This document shows positions 41,318 to 48,750 of a stretch of 59,276 nt of DNA, piece by piece. This DNA is from Bacillota bacterium (GTDB taxonomy: Bacteria; Bacillota; Sulfobacillia; JAJZYS01; JAJYTV01). Within the stretch, counting starts at the first letter, position 1. Every line of letters starts with the position of its first letter. Both the position numbers and the translations under genes were made by a program. Under the pieces are notes generated by a model that did no database searches, was not told the origin of the DNA, and saw nothing but the letters and a program-made list of their open reading frames with translations. The stretch is taken from contig JAJZQO010000009.1 in assembly GCA_021847575.1 (NCBI GenBank), forward strand, positions 1-59,276, in the 5' to 3' direction.

Positions 41318-42538
41318 TCAAATCTCCCGCAAGAACGCCCGGGCGATGTCCGCCGCCCGGGGCATGAGGCCCGGCGCGACAAACACGGAAACGGCCCAGA
41401 GATCGCGGTAGCGGTCCGCCAGCAGGTCCACCTCCCGGTCGCCGCCGGGCGGCGCGTCCAGCGGGTAGACGCCCGACGGCAGCCGCGTCGGCACGCGCAT
41501 CTCGCGGAACTCGGGCGGCGGCGGACAGGAGATCACCACCTGAACCGACGGAGCGCCGCCTGCCCGGGCGATGCGCTCTTCGGCCTCGCGGCGCGCGGAA
41601 CGTGGCTCGAGGGCCAAGCGCAGCTGCTCGAGCCGCGCTTGCCCTGCAGAAGGGCGGTCGAGCACGAATGCGCGCTTGTACAGCCGCCGGCACCCTACCG
41701 CGTCCGCAAGTTCCTTCGCCTCGTCGCCATATTGGCCACTGGCCAGAAGGTCCAGGAGGGCGTCGTCACCGAGACCGAGGAGCGACGTGGGATCAAGGCC
41801 CTGCTCGCAGGCCAGCTCCACCGCCTTCGCGACCATTGCGCCCGCGGCGATCTTGGTGTGATGCAGGTAGACGCGCTCGGTGAGGAGGTAGCGCATGCGG
41901 AAGAGCTGGAGGATCTCCGAACGGGCATCCGGCCTGATCCGGCCGTGGCGCTCCAGGCGCACGCCAAGGCGCCCGTCCACAACCTCGAGCGTCTGCAGCA
42001 CGCGCTCGTCGTACTGCTGCCGAATGCCTGTCATGTACGCGTCGCGGCGCAGGTAGTCCAGGAGATCCGCGTCGAGCGGCCCGCTCACGACATCCCTCGC
42101 CCAGTGCGGCACTGCCCCGTCGCCGAGCAGAAGTCCGAGGGCCTGCTCGCCGGCGGGCAACTCGTGCAACGGTCTGCGGATGTCGCCCGCGAGCGCTGGC
42201 CGCATGCGGCCCTCGGTGTCGTGGCGCGGCAAGAGCGGTCTTTCGTCCTCGAAGGTGTGCCCGAAGGGCACATGGGCGATGTCGTGCAGCAGGGCTGCGA
42301 TCAGCACCGCGTCCGCCCAGGGGTCGCCCTCGCGCCCGATGGCGGTCAGGATCAGCCGCGCGGCGTGCGCGGTGCCGAGCGAGTGCTCGAAGCGGCTGTG
42401 CTGCGCGCCGGGATACACGAGGTAGGCGAGGCCCAGCTGGCGGACGCGGCGCAGCCGCTGCATCTCCCTGGTGTCCAGAAGGCTCCGCGTCCAGTCGGGC
42501 AGTTCGATGTCGCCCCAGACCGGGTCGCGCACCAGCAT
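41318..42538 (-). CDS. HD-domain phosphohydrolase (dGTPase-like)
   Basis: A 406-residue COG1078/SAMHD1-like protein. HD ligands appear in SRFEHSLGTAHAA and LLHDIAHVPFGHTFED, with the later Asp in PLDADLLDYLRRDAYMTG. Similar proteins (YwfO) are dNTP triphosphohydrolases, but activity cannot be assigned. The ATG overlaps the tlyA stop (ATGA) and is 9-10 bp from GAGGAGG; a TTG three codons earlier is too close to that site. Confidence 0.88.
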   Translation of the reverse strand: MLVRDPVWGDIELPDWTRSLLDTREMQRLRRVRQLGLAYLVYPGAQHSRFEHSLGTAHAARLILTAIGREGDPWADAVLIAALLHDIAHVPFGHTFEDERPLLPRHDTEGRMRPALAGDIRRPLHELPAGEQALGLLLGDGAVPHWARDVVSGPLDADLLDYLRRDAYMTGIRQQYDERVLQTLEVVDGRLGVRLERHGRIRPDARSEILQLFRMRYLLTERVYLHHTKIAAGAMVAKAVELACEQGLDPTSLLGLGDDALLDLLASGQYGDEAKELADAVGCRRLYKRAFVLDRPSAGQARLEQLRLALEPRSARREAEERIARAGGAPSVQVVISCPPPPEFREMRVPTRLPSGVYPLDAPPGGDREVDLLADRYRDLWAVSVFVAPGLMPRAADIARAFLREI

Positions 42539-43302
42539 CAGCGCCAAGCCTCCTCGATGGCCGCGTTCGCGTCGAACCTGGCACCGCCAGGCCCGATATG
42601 CATCAGAAACTCCCGGTTGCCGTCGCCGCCCCAGATCGGTGACGCGCAGACGCCCGTCGGGTGCAGGCCCTGCTGCGCTGCGGCCGCCGCGACCTCCTCG
42701 AGGACACGCAGGTGCACCTTGCGGTCGCGCACGATGCCGCCCTTGCCCACGTCTTTGGGACCAGCCTCGAACTGCGGCTTGACGAGCGCCAGGACCTCGG
42801 CGCCCGGAGCGGCCAGGTCTCGCACGGCCTCGAACACCAGGCGCAGCGAGATGAAGGAAAGGTCGAGGGTGAACAGTTCGATGGGTTCGGGCAGGTCTCC
42901 TCGGCGCAGATGGCGCAGATTGGTGCCTTCGCGCACGTGGACGCGGCAGTCTTGCATGAGCTGCGGTGCCAGTTGCGCATGCCCCGTATCGATGGCGTAG
43001 ACGCGGAGCGCGCCGCGTTCCAGGAGAACCTGCGTGAAGCCGCCGGTGGATGCCCCGGCATCCAGTGCCACGCGCCCCGCGGCGGCCACACCGAAGTGCT
43101 CCAGGGCGTGCAGCAGCTTCAGAGCCCCGCGCGACACGTAGCGCGACGGGATTACGTCGATCACCGCGTCGTCCGAAACGGGCTCGGAGTTGCGGGTGGC
43201 CACGCGCCCTGCGACGCGCACCTGCCCTGCCGCGATCAGGGCCTGCGCGCGCGAGCGGCTCAGGCAGAGGCCTTTCCGGACGAGAAACGCGTCAAGACGC
43301 AT
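42538..43302 (-). CDS. tlyA: TlyA-family rRNA 2'-O-methyltransferase
   Basis: A 254-residue protein with an N-terminal S4 RNA-binding domain (RLDAFLVRKGLCLSRSRAQ) and an RrmJ-type methyltransferase: SRGALKLLHAL, LDAGASTGGFTQVLL, LDLSFISL and LVKPQFEAGP hold the K-D-K set and the SAM loop. It probably methylates 16S/23S rRNA. The start overlaps dxs by 11 bp. Confidence 0.94.
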   Translation of the reverse strand: MRLDAFLVRKGLCLSRSRAQALIAAGQVRVAGRVATRNSEPVSDDAVIDVIPSRYVSRGALKLLHALEHFGVAAAGRVALDAGASTGGFTQVLLERGALRVYAIDTGHAQLAPQLMQDCRVHVREGTNLRHLRRGDLPEPIELFTLDLSFISLRLVFEAVRDLAAPGAEVLALVKPQFEAGPKDVGKGGIVRDRKVHLRVLEEVAAAAAQQGLHPTGVCASPIWGGDGNREFLMHIGPGGARFDANAAIEEAWR

Positions 43303-45160
43303 CCTGGGTGGCGTCGATCCGCAACTGCAGCTGCTGTGCGACCTGCGGCGCCGTCAGGCCGCATTCCTCCAGTTGCTCGCCGCGCGTCATGTGCTCGATG
43401 TAGCGATCAGGCACGGCAAAGCGCACATAGCGCCCACGGTAGCCGTCCGTGGCCAGTTCGCGCAGCACGGCGTCGCCGAAGCCGCCCTCCTCGGTCCCCT
43501 CTTCCAGGGTCGCCACGAGCGGGAACTCGGAGGCCCTGCGCACCATCTGGGCATCGAGCGGCTTGATGAAGCGAGCGTCGGCAACGGCGACGGAGATGCC
43601 GTGCGCGTCCAGGATCTGCGCCGCGTCCAGCGCCACCTGCACCATGGTCCCGACGGCGAGCAAAACGCCATGCGACCCTGCGCGCAGCCATTCGCCCTCG
43701 CCCTGCCGGATCTCCTTGGGCTGGCGATCGACGCCGGGGCAGTTCCCACGCGGGTAGCGGACCGCGAACGGCCCGTCAAGCGTCAGCGCCAGGCGCAGCA
43801 TCGCCTCCAGTTCCTGCTCGTCGCGCGGCGCCGCCACCGTGTAGCCTGGGATGGCGCGCAGGTAGGCCATATCGTAGAGGCCCTGGTGCGTAGCCCCGTC
43901 TTCGCCGACGAGTCCCGCGCGATCGAGGCAGAACACGACAGGCAGGCGCTGGATGCCCACGTCGTGGATGAGCTGGTCGTAGGCGCGCTGCAGGAAGGTC
44001 GAGTAGATGGCGCACAGCGGCCGCATGCCCTGCGTCGCGAGCCCGGCGGCAAAGGTCACCGCGTGGGCTTCGGCGATGCCGACATCGAAGAAACGCTCAG
44101 GGTGCGCGTCGCGGAAGTGGCGCAACCCGGTGCCATCCGCCATTGCCGCCGTCACCGCGACGACGCGGGGATCCTGCGTGCCGAGGTCGGCCGCGATCGC
44201 GCCGAACGCGTCGCTCCAGCTCGTTCCGCTCTTCTTGCTCGCCTTGCCGAGCCCGGTCTCCACCTCGAAAGGCGCCGTGGAGTGCCACTTGTTCGCGTCC
44301 TTGGCCGCAGGCTCGTAACCGTGTCCCTTCTCCGTCACCGCGTGGATCAGGACCGGTCCGCCCATTTCCTTGGCGCGCCGCAGCACGGAGCGCAGCGTGG
44401 CGACGTCGTGGCCGTCGATCGGTCCGAGGTAGCGCACGCCGAGCTCCTCGAAGATCTGACCGGGCACGAAAAGGTGCTTGACCGAGTCCTTCATGCGCTC
44501 GGCCGCCTCGGCCGCGCCCTTGCCCACAACCGGAATCGAGCGCAGCGCATACTCGACGTCATGCTTGAACCGGCGCACGGCCGGTGTCGTGCGGATGCGC
44601 GTCAGGTACGTGGACACCGCCCCGACGTTGGGCGAGATCGACATGGAGTTGTCGTTCAGCACGATGATCATGTCAGCGCCGAGCTGACCCGCGTTGTTGA
44701 GGCCCTCGTAGGCGAGCCCGCCTGTCAGCGCCCCGTCACCGACAACCGCCGCCACCACGTAGTCCTCGTGCTGCAGGTCACGGGCCGCCGCGATGCCGAG
44801 CGCCGCGGAGATGGCGGTGGAGGCATGGCCTGCCCCGAAGTGGTCACGGGTGCTCTCGTCCCGCCGCAGGTAGCCGCTTGCGCCGCCCCTCTGCCGAAGC
44901 GTCTGGAAGATGTCCCGGCGGCCGGTGAGCAGCTTGTGGGCGTACGCCTGGTGACCGACGTCGAAGATGAACTTGTCGGCCGCTCCGTGGAAGACCGAGT
45001 GCAAGGCCACCGTGATCTCCACTGCGCCCAGGCTCGGCGCCAGGTGGCCGCCGACGCGGGACACGACTTCTATGATCTCGCGGCGGACGTCGCTGCAGAG
45101 CACGCGCAGTTCCGCGTCGCTCATCTGCCCGATGTCACGCCCTTTTAGCAGATCCTCCAC
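43292..45160 (-). CDS. dxs: 1-deoxy-D-xylulose-5-phosphate synthase
   Basis: A 622-residue TPP enzyme that starts the MEP isoprenoid pathway from pyruvate and glyceraldehyde-3-phosphate. FDVGHQAYAHKLLTGR, VVGDGALTGGLAYEGLNN (TPP site), LNDNSMSISPNVG and DRAGLVGEDGATHQG are characteristic. The GTG start lies directly after the oapA stop and has GGGGAGGG upstream. With ispA it supplies isoprenoid precursors. Confidence 0.97.
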   Translation of the reverse strand: MEDLLKGRDIGQMSDAELRVLCSDVRREIIEVVSRVGGHLAPSLGAVEITVALHSVFHGAADKFIFDVGHQAYAHKLLTGRRDIFQTLRQRGGASGYLRRDESTRDHFGAGHASTAISAALGIAAARDLQHEDYVVAAVVGDGALTGGLAYEGLNNAGQLGADMIIVLNDNSMSISPNVGAVSTYLTRIRTTPAVRRFKHDVEYALRSIPVVGKGAAEAAERMKDSVKHLFVPGQIFEELGVRYLGPIDGHDVATLRSVLRRAKEMGGPVLIHAVTEKGHGYEPAAKDANKWHSTAPFEVETGLGKASKKSGTSWSDAFGAIAADLGTQDPRVVAVTAAMADGTGLRHFRDAHPERFFDVGIAEAHAVTFAAGLATQGMRPLCAIYSTFLQRAYDQLIHDVGIQRLPVVFCLDRAGLVGEDGATHQGLYDMAYLRAIPGYTVAAPRDEQELEAMLRLALTLDGPFAVRYPRGNCPGVDRQPKEIRQGEGEWLRAGSHGVLLAVGTMVQVALDAAQILDAHGISVAVADARFIKPLDAQMVRRASEFPLVATLEEGTEEGGFGDAVLRELATDGYRGRYVRFAVPDRYIEHMTRGEQLEECGLTAPQVAQQLQLRIDATQDAS

Positions 45161-45745
45161 TCAAAGCCCTCCCCGGCGTCGCCTCGGCTGCGGCTCGAGG
45201 ATGTGCATGGGCAGCACCGCCTCTACAGCCTCTAGGATACGGCCGACCAGCCACACGATCGCGTCCGCTTCGCGGACGGCCAGACCCTTTGCTGCTGATT
45301 TTAGACCAATTGTGACAGCAGAGACGAGCGCCACCGCAAGAATCGCGCCTATGCCGCGCTCGGCAGGTGCGGCGCGCAGGGCGAGGCCCGCCGCCAGAGC
45401 GCCCGACAGCGTGCCGGCGATGTCCCCCACGACGTCCGAACAGAACGTCGCCACCCGATCAGCCTCGCGCACCAGGCGAATCGCCTTGCGGGCGCCGGGG
45501 CGCTTGCTCGCCGAGCGGGCGTGGAACGGCGTCTCGTGCGCCCGCGTTGCGGCTACGCCCACAATGTCGAACACGACGCCGAGCAGGATGATGAGTAGCA
45601 CGATGAGGACGGCGCCGAGCGCCGGCCAACCGAGCGCCGCGCTCTGCGCCGGCCAGGTGACCACCAGGGCAAGAACGAACGCCAGCAGGGCAAAGCGAAC
45701 GGCACGCCATCCCAGGCGCGGTTGGCGCCTCACGACGTGCCCCAT
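45161..45745 (-). CDS. oapA: OLE-associated membrane protein OapA
   Basis: A 194-residue membrane protein with about four hydrophobic segments (FALLAFVLALVVTW, AVLIVLLIILLGVVFDIVG, TLSGALAAGLAL, AILAVALVSAVTIGL). The loop FDIVGVAATRAHETPFHARS, then RKAIRLVREADRV and FCSDVVGDIAGTLSG, fits the conserved basic/acidic loop of proteins found between OLE RNA and dxs. In Bacillus halodurans OapA binds OLE RNA at the membrane. The ATG at 45745 follows the RNA's T6 tract with no ribosome site; GTG 45733 or TTG 45772 are alternatives. Confidence 0.75.
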   Translation of the reverse strand: MGHVVRRQPRLGWRAVRFALLAFVLALVVTWPAQSAALGWPALGAVLIVLLIILLGVVFDIVGVAATRAHETPFHARSASKRPGARKAIRLVREADRVATFCSDVVGDIAGTLSGALAAGLALRAAPAERGIGAILAVALVSAVTIGLKSAAKGLAVREADAIVWLVGRILEAVEAVLPMHILEPQPRRRRGGL

Positions 45746-46365
45746 AAAAAAGGCTCGGGTGGAAACCTGCAAGGTAAACGCTGCGGCTTAGGTCCAGCTG
45801 GCTTTCCCAAGCGGGGCTCCGGCCGTCGCCGGCCGTCGGTTCCCCTCTCACCCCGCTGCGCCCTGTCGCCATAGGCGCTGCTAGATTGCCACTCAGGCCG
45901 CACTGTAATCCCTCGCACGTCTCGCACTTGGCGAACAGCCTAGGAGTTTTCCTCGCGGCGCGTGTTTTCCCTTAGCCTCTTTTGCCATGCGGGTTTCTTT
46001 CGGCTGCGACGCTTCGCCGGGGCCCCGGACAACGGCGTCGGAACCCGACTTCCCCCCGCCCAGCTCAAGGCAGGCTACGCTGCACCAAGCGCCTGGCCAT
46101 GCCCAGCACCTGATGCAGGTACAACTCCAAGCCGCAGATGCGATCCGCAGGCGGACCCTCCACGAACTTGGGCCTCCGCGGAGGATGGGTGCGTGACCAT
46201 ATGCCATTATGGGCGCCCCAACCTCCTCCACTCCCAGCACGAACCCGGGCTTGGCGTCCCGGGCCCGCACCAGGAGGTTCATCGATGTGCCCTTCGGCGG
46301 CTTTTTAGGCCCGCCCTAGGGGAGACACGTCCGGCTAGGATACTGCTCCACCCGAAAACATGAGC
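45746..46365 (-). ncRNA. ole: OLE RNA (large structured RNA)
   Basis: A ~620-nt stretch between ispA and oapA-dxs with no credible protein frame. OLE RNA (ornate, large, extremophilic) of anaerobic and extremophilic Bacillota is ~600 nt and sits at exactly this locus beside its membrane partner. Visible structure includes CCCGGG/CCCGGG (46244-46263), CCTCCGCGGAGG (46173-46184), and a GCGGGG/CCCCGC stem (45811-45856) with a nested GGCC/GGCC hairpin. An extended -10 promoter lies at the 5' end and TTTTTT (45746-45751) at the 3' end. In B. halodurans the RNA-OapA complex supports growth under alcohol, cold and Mg2+ stress. The call is from context; sequence identity was not computed. Confidence 0.8.
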
Positions 46366-46371
46366 ACAGCA

Positions 46372-46380
46372 AGTATAGCA
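46372..46380 (-). promoter_or_regulatory. Extended -10 promoter of OLE RNA
   Basis: TGCTATACT on the minus strand is an extended -10 element (TGn before TATACT). Transcription would begin near 46365. No good -35 is seen, which extended -10 promoters tolerate. The site lies 92 bp downstream of the ispA stop, so the RNA can be made apart from the upstream operon. Confidence 0.6.
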
Positions 46381-46472: not shown

Positions 46473-47324
46473 TCAGTGCGTGCGCGCCACGAGTTCGACG
46501 ACCAGGCGCTCCAGCGGTTCACGATTCAAGTCGCTGTTTGCCAGGGCTGCCACGGCCTGCGCCGAGTGATCGCGCAATGCGGCCTCAGCCGCGGCGACAC
46601 CCGCGATCGCCGCGATATTGGGCCTCCGTTTCCCAGCATCCTTGTTAAGCCGCTTGCCCATGTCCGCTTCGGACCCTTGCACGTCCAAGAGGTCGTCCTT
46701 GATCTGGAACGCGATGCCAAGTTCACGCCCGTAGGACCTGAGCGCCTGGGCGAGGTCTGCGCGCGCCGCGAGGAAGGCCCCGACGGCGGCTGCCGCGCCG
46801 AGAGGATAGCCCGTCTTGGCCGCGGCTACCCTGAGCCAGCCTGCGGCGTCCTTGGCGCCGGAAAGGTCGAGCGCCTGCCCGCCGACCATGCCGAAACCGA
46901 AGCCAGCACCTACCGCGACCTCGCGCACCGCGGCGAGCTGCAGTTCGGGTGGCACGGCGGCGAGCGGCTCCGCGAGGAGCGCGAACGCGAGCGTCAGGAG
47001 GCCGTCGCCCGTAAGGATCGCGGTCGCCTCGTCGAAGGCCCTGTGCAACGTCGGCTTGCCGTGGCGCAGGTCGTCGTCATCCATCGCCGGCAGGTCGTCG
47101 TGGATCAGCGAATAGGCGTGGACACACTCGACGGCGGCCGCCGCCCGGCCGAGCTGCCGCCAGTCCCCGCCGCAGACGTCGGCGGACAGCAGCACGAGAC
47201 CCGGCCGCAGGCGCTTGCCGCCCGCCAGGGCGTACGCCATGGGCCCACCCAGGACCTCGTCGGCGACATCGAGGTCCTTGATCGTCGACTCGAGCAGGGG
47301 CAGGTAGCCTTCGATCGCCTTCAC
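46473..47324 (-). CDS. ispA: Farnesyl diphosphate synthase
   Basis: A 283-residue polyprenyl synthase. The first Asp-rich motif is in YSLIHDDLPAMDDDDLRHG, the second in FQIKDDLLDVQG, with GGKRLRPGL at the N-terminus. It condenses DMAPP and IPP to C15. GTG start overlaps the xseB stop (GTGA). It is the last gene before the OLE locus. Confidence 0.94.
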   Translation of the reverse strand: MKAIEGYLPLLESTIKDLDVADEVLGGPMAYALAGGKRLRPGLVLLSADVCGGDWRQLGRAAAAVECVHAYSLIHDDLPAMDDDDLRHGKPTLHRAFDEATAILTGDGLLTLAFALLAEPLAAVPPELQLAAVREVAVGAGFGFGMVGGQALDLSGAKDAAGWLRVAAAKTGYPLGAAAAVGAFLAARADLAQALRSYGRELGIAFQIKDDLLDVQGSEADMGKRLNKDAGKRRPNIAAIAGVAAAEAALRDHSAQAVAALANSDLNREPLERLVVELVARTH

Positions 47325-47545
47325 CGCAGGGGCTCCTCGCCCGTCAGGTCCTCAGGGATCTCGCCCGTGGCGTCGCCCAGGAGCTCCTCGATGCGCCCCT
47401 CCGCATGCGAAAGGATCTCCTCGCAGTTGCGGCTCAGTGCCACGCCCTCCTCGAACAGCTTGAGCTGGGCCTCGAGATCGTCCGTTCCGGCCTCGAGCCT
47501 CTGCACGATGGCCTCAAGCCTGCCCACGGCCTCCTCGAACTTCAT
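47321..47545 (-). CDS. xseB: Exodeoxyribonuclease VII small subunit
   Basis: A 74-residue helical-hairpin protein, FEEAVGRLEAIVQRLEAG and LKLFEEGVALSRNCEEIL being diagnostic. It assembles on XseA to form the nuclease. It overlaps both neighbours by 4 bp. Confidence 0.93.
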   Translation of the reverse strand: MKFEEAVGRLEAIVQRLEAGTDDLEAQLKLFEEGVALSRNCEEILSHAEGRIEELLGDATGEIPEDLTGEEPLR

Positions 47546-48750
47546 CGGTCTGCCTCCTTCGTCTCCACCTGGTCGACCAGAGCGGCTGCCTGACCATCCG
47601 CGAAGTGCACCTCGATGCGGTCCCCGTCCGCCAGTTCAGCCGCCCGGCGCACCGCCACGCCCTGCCGGATCACGAACGCGTAGCCGCGCCGCAAAGGTCC
47701 CCGCGGGTCGAGACCGGCCAGACTGGCCTGTGCCGCCTGCAGGCGCGCGCGCCGTCGCAGCGCGCCGCTGCGCGCGACGTGTCCGAGCAGCCGCGTCGCG
47801 GCCTGCAGCCGTTCGCGGCGGCGCAGCGCGAGTTCCTGCGGGCGCCGCATCGGTCCCCGCTGCATCAGCCCGCGGAGGCGATCGCGCCGCCGCTCGGCGC
47901 CGCGCCTGAGTCCCTGTCCGAGTCGCTGGCGCATCTCCCACAGCCGATACGCGATCTCGCGCTGCACAGGCACGACAAGTTCGGCAGCGGCGCTGGGCGT
48001 CGGGGCACGCTGGTCGGCGGCGAAGTCGACAAGGGTGTAATCGATCTCGTGGCCCACGGCCGAGACCACCGGCACAGGACAGGCGGCCACGGCCCGCACG
48101 AGTGCTTCGTCGTTGAACGCGTCGAGGTCCTCCTGGCTGCCGCCGCCGCGACCGATGATGATGACCTCGACGCCTTCATGGCGCCCCAGCCGGCGCAGTG
48201 CCCGCACGATCTCGGCCGCAGCGCCCTGCCCCTGCACCCGCGCAGGCGCGACCACCAGATCCTGCAGCGGATGGCGCCGCCGCGCGACCTGGATGATGTC
48301 GCGCAGAGCAGCGCCGGAAGACGATGTCACGATGCCGACCTTGCGCGGCAGGTAGGGCAGCGGGCGCTTGCGCTCCGGCCGGAAGATACCCTCCGCCTCG
48401 AGCCTGGCCTTCAGTTCCTTGAGTCGCATGAGCTGCTGGCCGAGGCCGAGTTGCTCGAGCTCCTCCGCGTAGACCTGCACCTGGCCTCCCGCCTGGTAGA
48501 ACGCGACCTGCCCGGTGACGAGCACCATGTCTCCGTCCTTCGGCGAGAAGGCCACCTGACGGAAGCGCGAGCGGAACATCACGCCGCGGATCTGCGCCGT
48601 CTCGTCCTTGAGCGTGAAGTAGAAGTGGCCGGACGGATGGGCTTTGACGCTGCCCAGTTCGCCACGCACACAGACGAGGCGGAGCCGCGGCTCCGCCTCA
48701 AGCACGTCGGTCAGGATACGGGCGACGTCACCGACGCTGAGAATCTCCAT
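47542..48750 (-). CDS. xseA: Exodeoxyribonuclease VII large subunit
   Basis: A 402-residue nuclease subunit: N-terminal OB fold ([20 protein letters not shown]), catalytic region with [32 protein letters not shown] and [17 protein letters not shown], an Arg-rich coiled coil and a C-terminal strand part. The ATG follows GGAGGCC by about 8 bp and lies 40 bp inside folD. Confidence 0.95.

Follow-up and report, generated by a model that had tools for sequence, protein, structure and literature searches.

A full-length OLE RNA gene between ispA and oapA-dxs in a poorly studied lineage of Bacillota

OLE RNA is a 600-letter, membrane-associated RNA of the stress response; few of the structured RNAs of bacteria that lack an assigned biochemical function are larger. 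The closest described systems are the OLE ribonucleoprotein of Halalkalibacterium halodurans, which contains OapA, OapB, OapC and bS21; the full-length OLE class, RF01071 (Fernando and Breaker, PMC11332333); a reduced type of OLE described as variant 1; and the MpfA/CorC transporters of species that lack OLE. The window analysed here is a stretch of 59,276 nucleotides from a genome of the Sulfobacillia (GCA_021847575.1), and the element that it carries between ispA and oapA-dxs is, on the evidence of its sequence, almost certainly a functional gene for OLE RNA. This new member of a known family is well supported and comes from a bacterial lineage that has seen little study; it is not new in kind, and the GTDB-wide OLE census (PMC11332333) may already cover relatives of the window genome.

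Identity and neighbourhood of the OLE gene

When the minus strand was compared with 4227 Rfam families by cmscan, RF01071 (OLE) matched positions 45743-46367 over its full length (model 1-616; 380.5 bits, E 2.9e-108; gathering cut-off 50 bits), and the Rfam scan of the window gave no family above threshold besides OLE. A preliminary description of the window had proposed this gene between ispA and oapA-dxs, with a covariance-model search of the minus strand as its check; that search confirmed the gene with an overwhelming score, and the interval originally drawn, 45746-46380, corresponds to the model match plus the promoter. A covariance-model search of the host genome located a single OLE locus in 2.86 Mb, and the same search of 14 control genomes located none. 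The gene order folD-xseA-xseB-ispA-OLE-oapA-dxs-tlyA was confirmed; it is a typical OLE neighbourhood of isoprenoid and other housekeeping genes, with conserved synteny, and includes the following features:

42538..43302, minus strand: tlyA-family rRNA methyltransferase (TIGR00478, 209.8 bits)
43292..45160, minus strand: dxs (TIGR00204, 757 bits)
45161..45733, minus strand: oapA, a four-helix membrane protein of 190 aa with a GTG start
45743..46367, minus strand: OLE RNA gene (RF01071, full length, 625 nt)
46473..47324, minus strand: ispA, polyprenyl/farnesyl diphosphate synthase (PF00348, 160.7 bits)
47321..48750, minus strand: xseB and xseA, exonuclease VII (PF02609; TIGR00237)

The ispA product scores 252.5 bits against NF045485, under the 275 cut-off of that model. 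Downstream of tlyA lies a gene for a 409-aa protein (41318-42547, minus strand) with a weak dGTP-triphosphohydrolase-like (HD-domain) match. ARAGORN calls a tRNA-Gly(ccc) at 42430-42522 on the plus strand, within an opposite-strand gene; the call is probably spurious, since Rfam gives no tRNA match. Among the loci compared, contig JAIMBG010000109.1 (L042, apparently of genome G024) is recorded as Acetobacteraceae and bears a Bacillota-type OLE-oapA-dxs-tlyA cluster; this label is probably a naming or binning error.

Since the interval admits open reading frames of 129-137 aa, it might be read as protein-coding, or as a meaningless GC-rich stretch. However, the frames of 129, 133 and 137 aa had no match to a family in Pfam or NCBIfam, and in close relatives indels of 1 nt break the frames, which together rule out protein coding across 45743-46367, and the full-length model match, the indels and the covariation described below already refute this explanation, whose probability is negligible. 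No conserved protein was found across the interval, in agreement with its first reading as some 620 nt that hold no credible ORF. Its description as very GC-rich is true at 64% G+C, yet this is not exceptional among OLE RNAs of the same class, which range from 0.54 to 0.71 across 52 sequences.

The four-span membrane protein that had been predicted downstream, followed by dxs, was borne out in both parts. The start of oapA most likely lies 10 nt beyond the OLE model end, at the GTG at 45733, which is preferred to the less likely ATG at 45745 because relatives align at a GTG or TTG after GGAGG and mostly lack that ATG. The homologues with which OapA aligns range from Limnochordia to Clostridium. 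The DxxxD motif of OapA (D100..D104), named as distinctive of this protein (PMC11332333), is invariant in 12 homologues. Against the CNNM family (PF01595) the protein falls below the cut-off (E 8.7e-4), and a sequence search of the PDB with OapA gave no match. In its AlphaFold model (mean pLDDT 79), four long helices are accompanied by shorter ones, and CNNM/CorC magnesium transporters make up all six of the best PDB matches of the model; the E-values of these matches are weak (0.03-0.3), but their probability is 0.98-1.00.

Covariation and the elements matched to published contacts

The many internal hairpins noticed in the preliminary description are supported by a low folding-energy z-score and by strong covariation. 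The minus strand of the interval has a minimum free energy of -307.9 kcal/mol (z = -3.9) and folds better than every one of 20 dinucleotide shuffles, and 141 of the 155 modelled pairs are standard in the window RNA. OLE sequences were aligned with MAFFT by sequence alone, the window structure was then overlaid, and pairs with partners slid by 1-3 bases served as the control. Within the same family (n=9), 90.9% of cells are paired versus 38-44% in the slid controls, and two-sided changes occur in 24 pairs (62 cells) versus 2-8 pairs (2-11 cells). The corresponding values for the same order (n=14) are 89.2% versus at most 45%, and 64 pairs (190 cells) versus at most 27 (40); those for the same class (n=52) are 86.6% versus at most 48.1%, and 127 pairs (1175 cells) versus at most 91 (457). 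A consensus structure folded independently from the 5' and 3' arms of 52 sequences recovers the domain-closing helices. The helix names P2 and P3 are our own assignment, after PMC12265935: in the CCUAG/CUAGG palindrome, all 52 sequences have four of the five pairs unchanged and the fifth paired, and the CCCU/AGGG helix in the P3 region covaries across the 52 sequences.

Four elements of the window RNA can be matched to published contacts:

46335..46339, minus strand: 5' CCUAG arm of P2, with its 3' partner CUAGG at RNA positions 425-429
46302..46309, minus strand: A-rich P4 loop (CCUAAAAA), RNA positions 59-66
46007..46040, minus strand: distal P9 arm with a palindromic GGCC loop, RNA positions 328-361
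45818..45837, minus strand: P13 hairpin with a GGCGAC loop, RNA positions 531-550

The OapA contact of OLE lies in the region of the P2 5' arm and the OapB-binding region is P13 (PMC12265935); in OLE structures the A-rich P4 loop is an A-A dimerisation contact (PMC12286853, PMC12265935) and the P9 GGCC loop a symmetric kissing-loop dimer contact (PMC12286853). The sequence CCUAAAAA of the P4 loop is identical in all nine family members, and GGCC is retained in P9 of all nine though the stem differs, so that the sequences of both predicted dimer contacts are present in the window RNA. The strands from J4a/5 to J6/7, the OapC kink-turn region, are aligned and conserved at the sequence level.

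Some properties of the RNA might be expected of a decayed or silent gene that persists as a relic of the lineage: its 380 bits are fewer than those of many genomes of the same class (up to 496 bits), and 14 of its 155 pairs are non-standard. Yet the RNA shares about 93% identity with copies from the same genus and keeps compensatory changes; its promoter, dimer loops, OapA and partner candidates are intact; and a full-length copy occurs in four of the genus's five other genomes, the fifth being apparently truncated by a contig end within a 95%-identical copy. A relic is highly improbable, and a functional gene is the preferred reading.

The promoter, the 3' end and the relation of OLE to oapA

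The OLE gene is preceded by one further feature, which was assessed for its conservation in the family:

46372..46380, minus strand: extended -10 element TGCTATACT of the OLE gene

This element, proposed at the outset, is present and conserved: TGNTATA(A/C)T occurs in nine of nine family members, 9-11 nt ahead of the start of the model match, and the flanks diverge. Upstream of OLE, no recognisable -35 element was found and a sigma-70 consensus scan gave no match. At one locus (L037:2250-3340) an insertion of about 1 kb, which carries on the opposite strand an ORF for a 206-aa lipoprotein-like protein, lies between ispA and the OLE promoter, an arrangement compatible with OLE having its own promoter there.

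The RNA had also been thought to end at a run of six T, and this is the one part of the preliminary description that fails. Six T do stand just before 45745, but their role as an RNA end is unsupported: the run is specific to the window, a T run being absent in relatives, a search for a terminator-like hairpin before it found none, and T6 was therefore ruled out as a terminator. Relatives have at this site GGAGG, the oapA ribosome-binding site, and then the GTG or TTG start of oapA; because that ribosome-binding site sits at this spot, OLE and oapA are probably co-transcribed. OLE of H. halodurans reads into oapA and is then processed (PMC12265935, PMC11332333), and by analogy we infer 3' processing of the window transcript.

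The close spacing also invites the view that the element is a riboswitch-like leader, long and structured, at the 5' end of oapA-dxs and not a free RNA, since oapA lies 10 nt past the model end with no terminator between, and GGAGG stands just before oapA in relatives. OLE, however, is known as a separate RNA of about 600 nt in H. halodurans (PMC12265935), and it is not simply a leader of oapA because the two do not adjoin in four genomes of the same class. A leader is thus very unlikely, and a separate OLE RNA is favoured.

Partner genes, MpfA and known systems

The window genome encodes candidates for OapA, OapB, OapC (YbxF) and bS21. With OapB of Pseudalkalibacillus caeni as the query, which matches the PDB OapB 7k9b at 6.7e-34, a 96-codon frame on contig 96 of the genome (G000) gave a weak match (27 bits, E 5.6e-7); this candidate matches 7k9b weakly but specifically (E 4.4e-5) and is flanked, by inspection, by map and infA. 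A Pfam search for OapB by the KOW domain alone returned just frames of 105 and 198 aa, which by their size were taken as ribosomal L24 and NusG. The OapC candidate is an 88-aa L7Ae protein that matches YbxF (PDB 4lck) at E 2.3e-16 and lies, by inspection, between rpoC-like and S12-like frames; a bS21 gene is present.

Neither the window genome nor any sampled genome of its order has the CorC_HlyC domain (PF03471), and the window genome fits the published anticorrelation of OLE and MpfA. In a sample of 61 genomes, OLE was found in 56 and OapA in 57, the extra OapA-positive genome without an OLE call being G003 (78% complete). The contig of locus L039, which appears to be the OapA contig of G003, has 237 nt between its end and oapA, and OLE occupies this stretch with 95% identity over 228 nt. 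Neither OLE nor OapA occurs in three near-complete genomes (G020, G026 and G045), and all three have a CorC domain, versus 8 of the 56 OLE-positive genomes (Fisher p = 0.005, with related genomes treated as independent); G034, which is 70% complete, has none of OLE, OapA and the CorC domain. One class therefore shows the published pattern, in which OLE and OapA travel together and MpfA is present where both are missing. In four genomes of three families (G021, G040, G046 and G058), oapA is on another contig or far from OLE.

The lowest full-length OLE scores (272-282 bits) are those of a single family, f9, at loci L087, L088 and L089 of genomes G019, G060 and G044, respectively. In the two alignments inspected (L087 and L089) the P9 arm is largely gone and the GGCGAC loop of P13 is altered; OapB was not detectable by search in any of the three genomes, and all three have a CorC domain. 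The OLE of this family agrees with variant 1 (TANB77 type, PMC11332333), in which OLE is reduced, OapB is lost and MpfA is present. The class thus offers a compact natural series for testing what each part of the particle does.

The mechanistic steps proposed for the window are carried over by homology. Transcription of OLE would start at an extended -10 promoter of its own, the transcript would read through into oapA, and the OLE 3' end would be processed. The RNA may then fold and dimerise via the A-rich P4 loop, the P5 and P6 loops and the GGCC kissing loop of P9; the CNNM-like OapA would hold it at the membrane, and its fold may be tuned by OapC and bS21 in the P5-P6 region and by OapB at P13. 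The particle would support Mg2+ homeostasis and stress adaptation, and would do here what MpfA/CorC transporters do in OLE-less species. The model transferred to the window OLE is that of an OapA-anchored, dimeric membrane ribonucleoprotein linked to stress and Mg2+.

The closest named records are metagenome bins of uncultured Bacillota, and their isolate names presumably point to acid mine waters. A full-text literature search, with most subscription journals outside its scope, returned no paper joining OLE RNA with acid mine drainage. That the OLE particle is the sole CNNM-type metal-homeostasis device of this lineage, probably of acid-water Bacillota, is a doubtful proposition. If OLE domain 2 projects outside the membrane, as was recently proposed, it would meet an acidic exterior, and the lineage would therefore put the integral-membrane-RNA model to a natural stress test.

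The window alone leaves existing knowledge of OLE unchanged; what it contributes is a high-GC OLE with its full equipment, in an order that lacks MpfA. Its OapA shares a predicted CNNM-like membrane fold with the MpfA/CorC transporters (CNNM-CBS-CorC) but is the membrane part alone (190 aa), in a genome in which no CorC domain was found. Whereas variant 1 has a shortened P7-P9 and has lost the OapB site, the window RNA is not of this type because the P7-P9 arms and the GGCGAC loop of P13 are retained. For all four partners of the H. halodurans OLE particle the window genome encodes candidates; the whole cluster of H. halodurans is one polycistron (PMC12265935), whereas in the window a promoter-like element lies directly before OLE. 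With the full-length class RF01071 (PMC11332333), the window RNA shares every tested feature: all modelled helices and the P4, P9 and P13 loops, and likewise the adjoining oapA and dxs with ispA upstream. Nothing qualitative sets it apart from that class; the window RNA has 64% G+C, a length of 625 nt and some non-standard pairs in the long variable stems.
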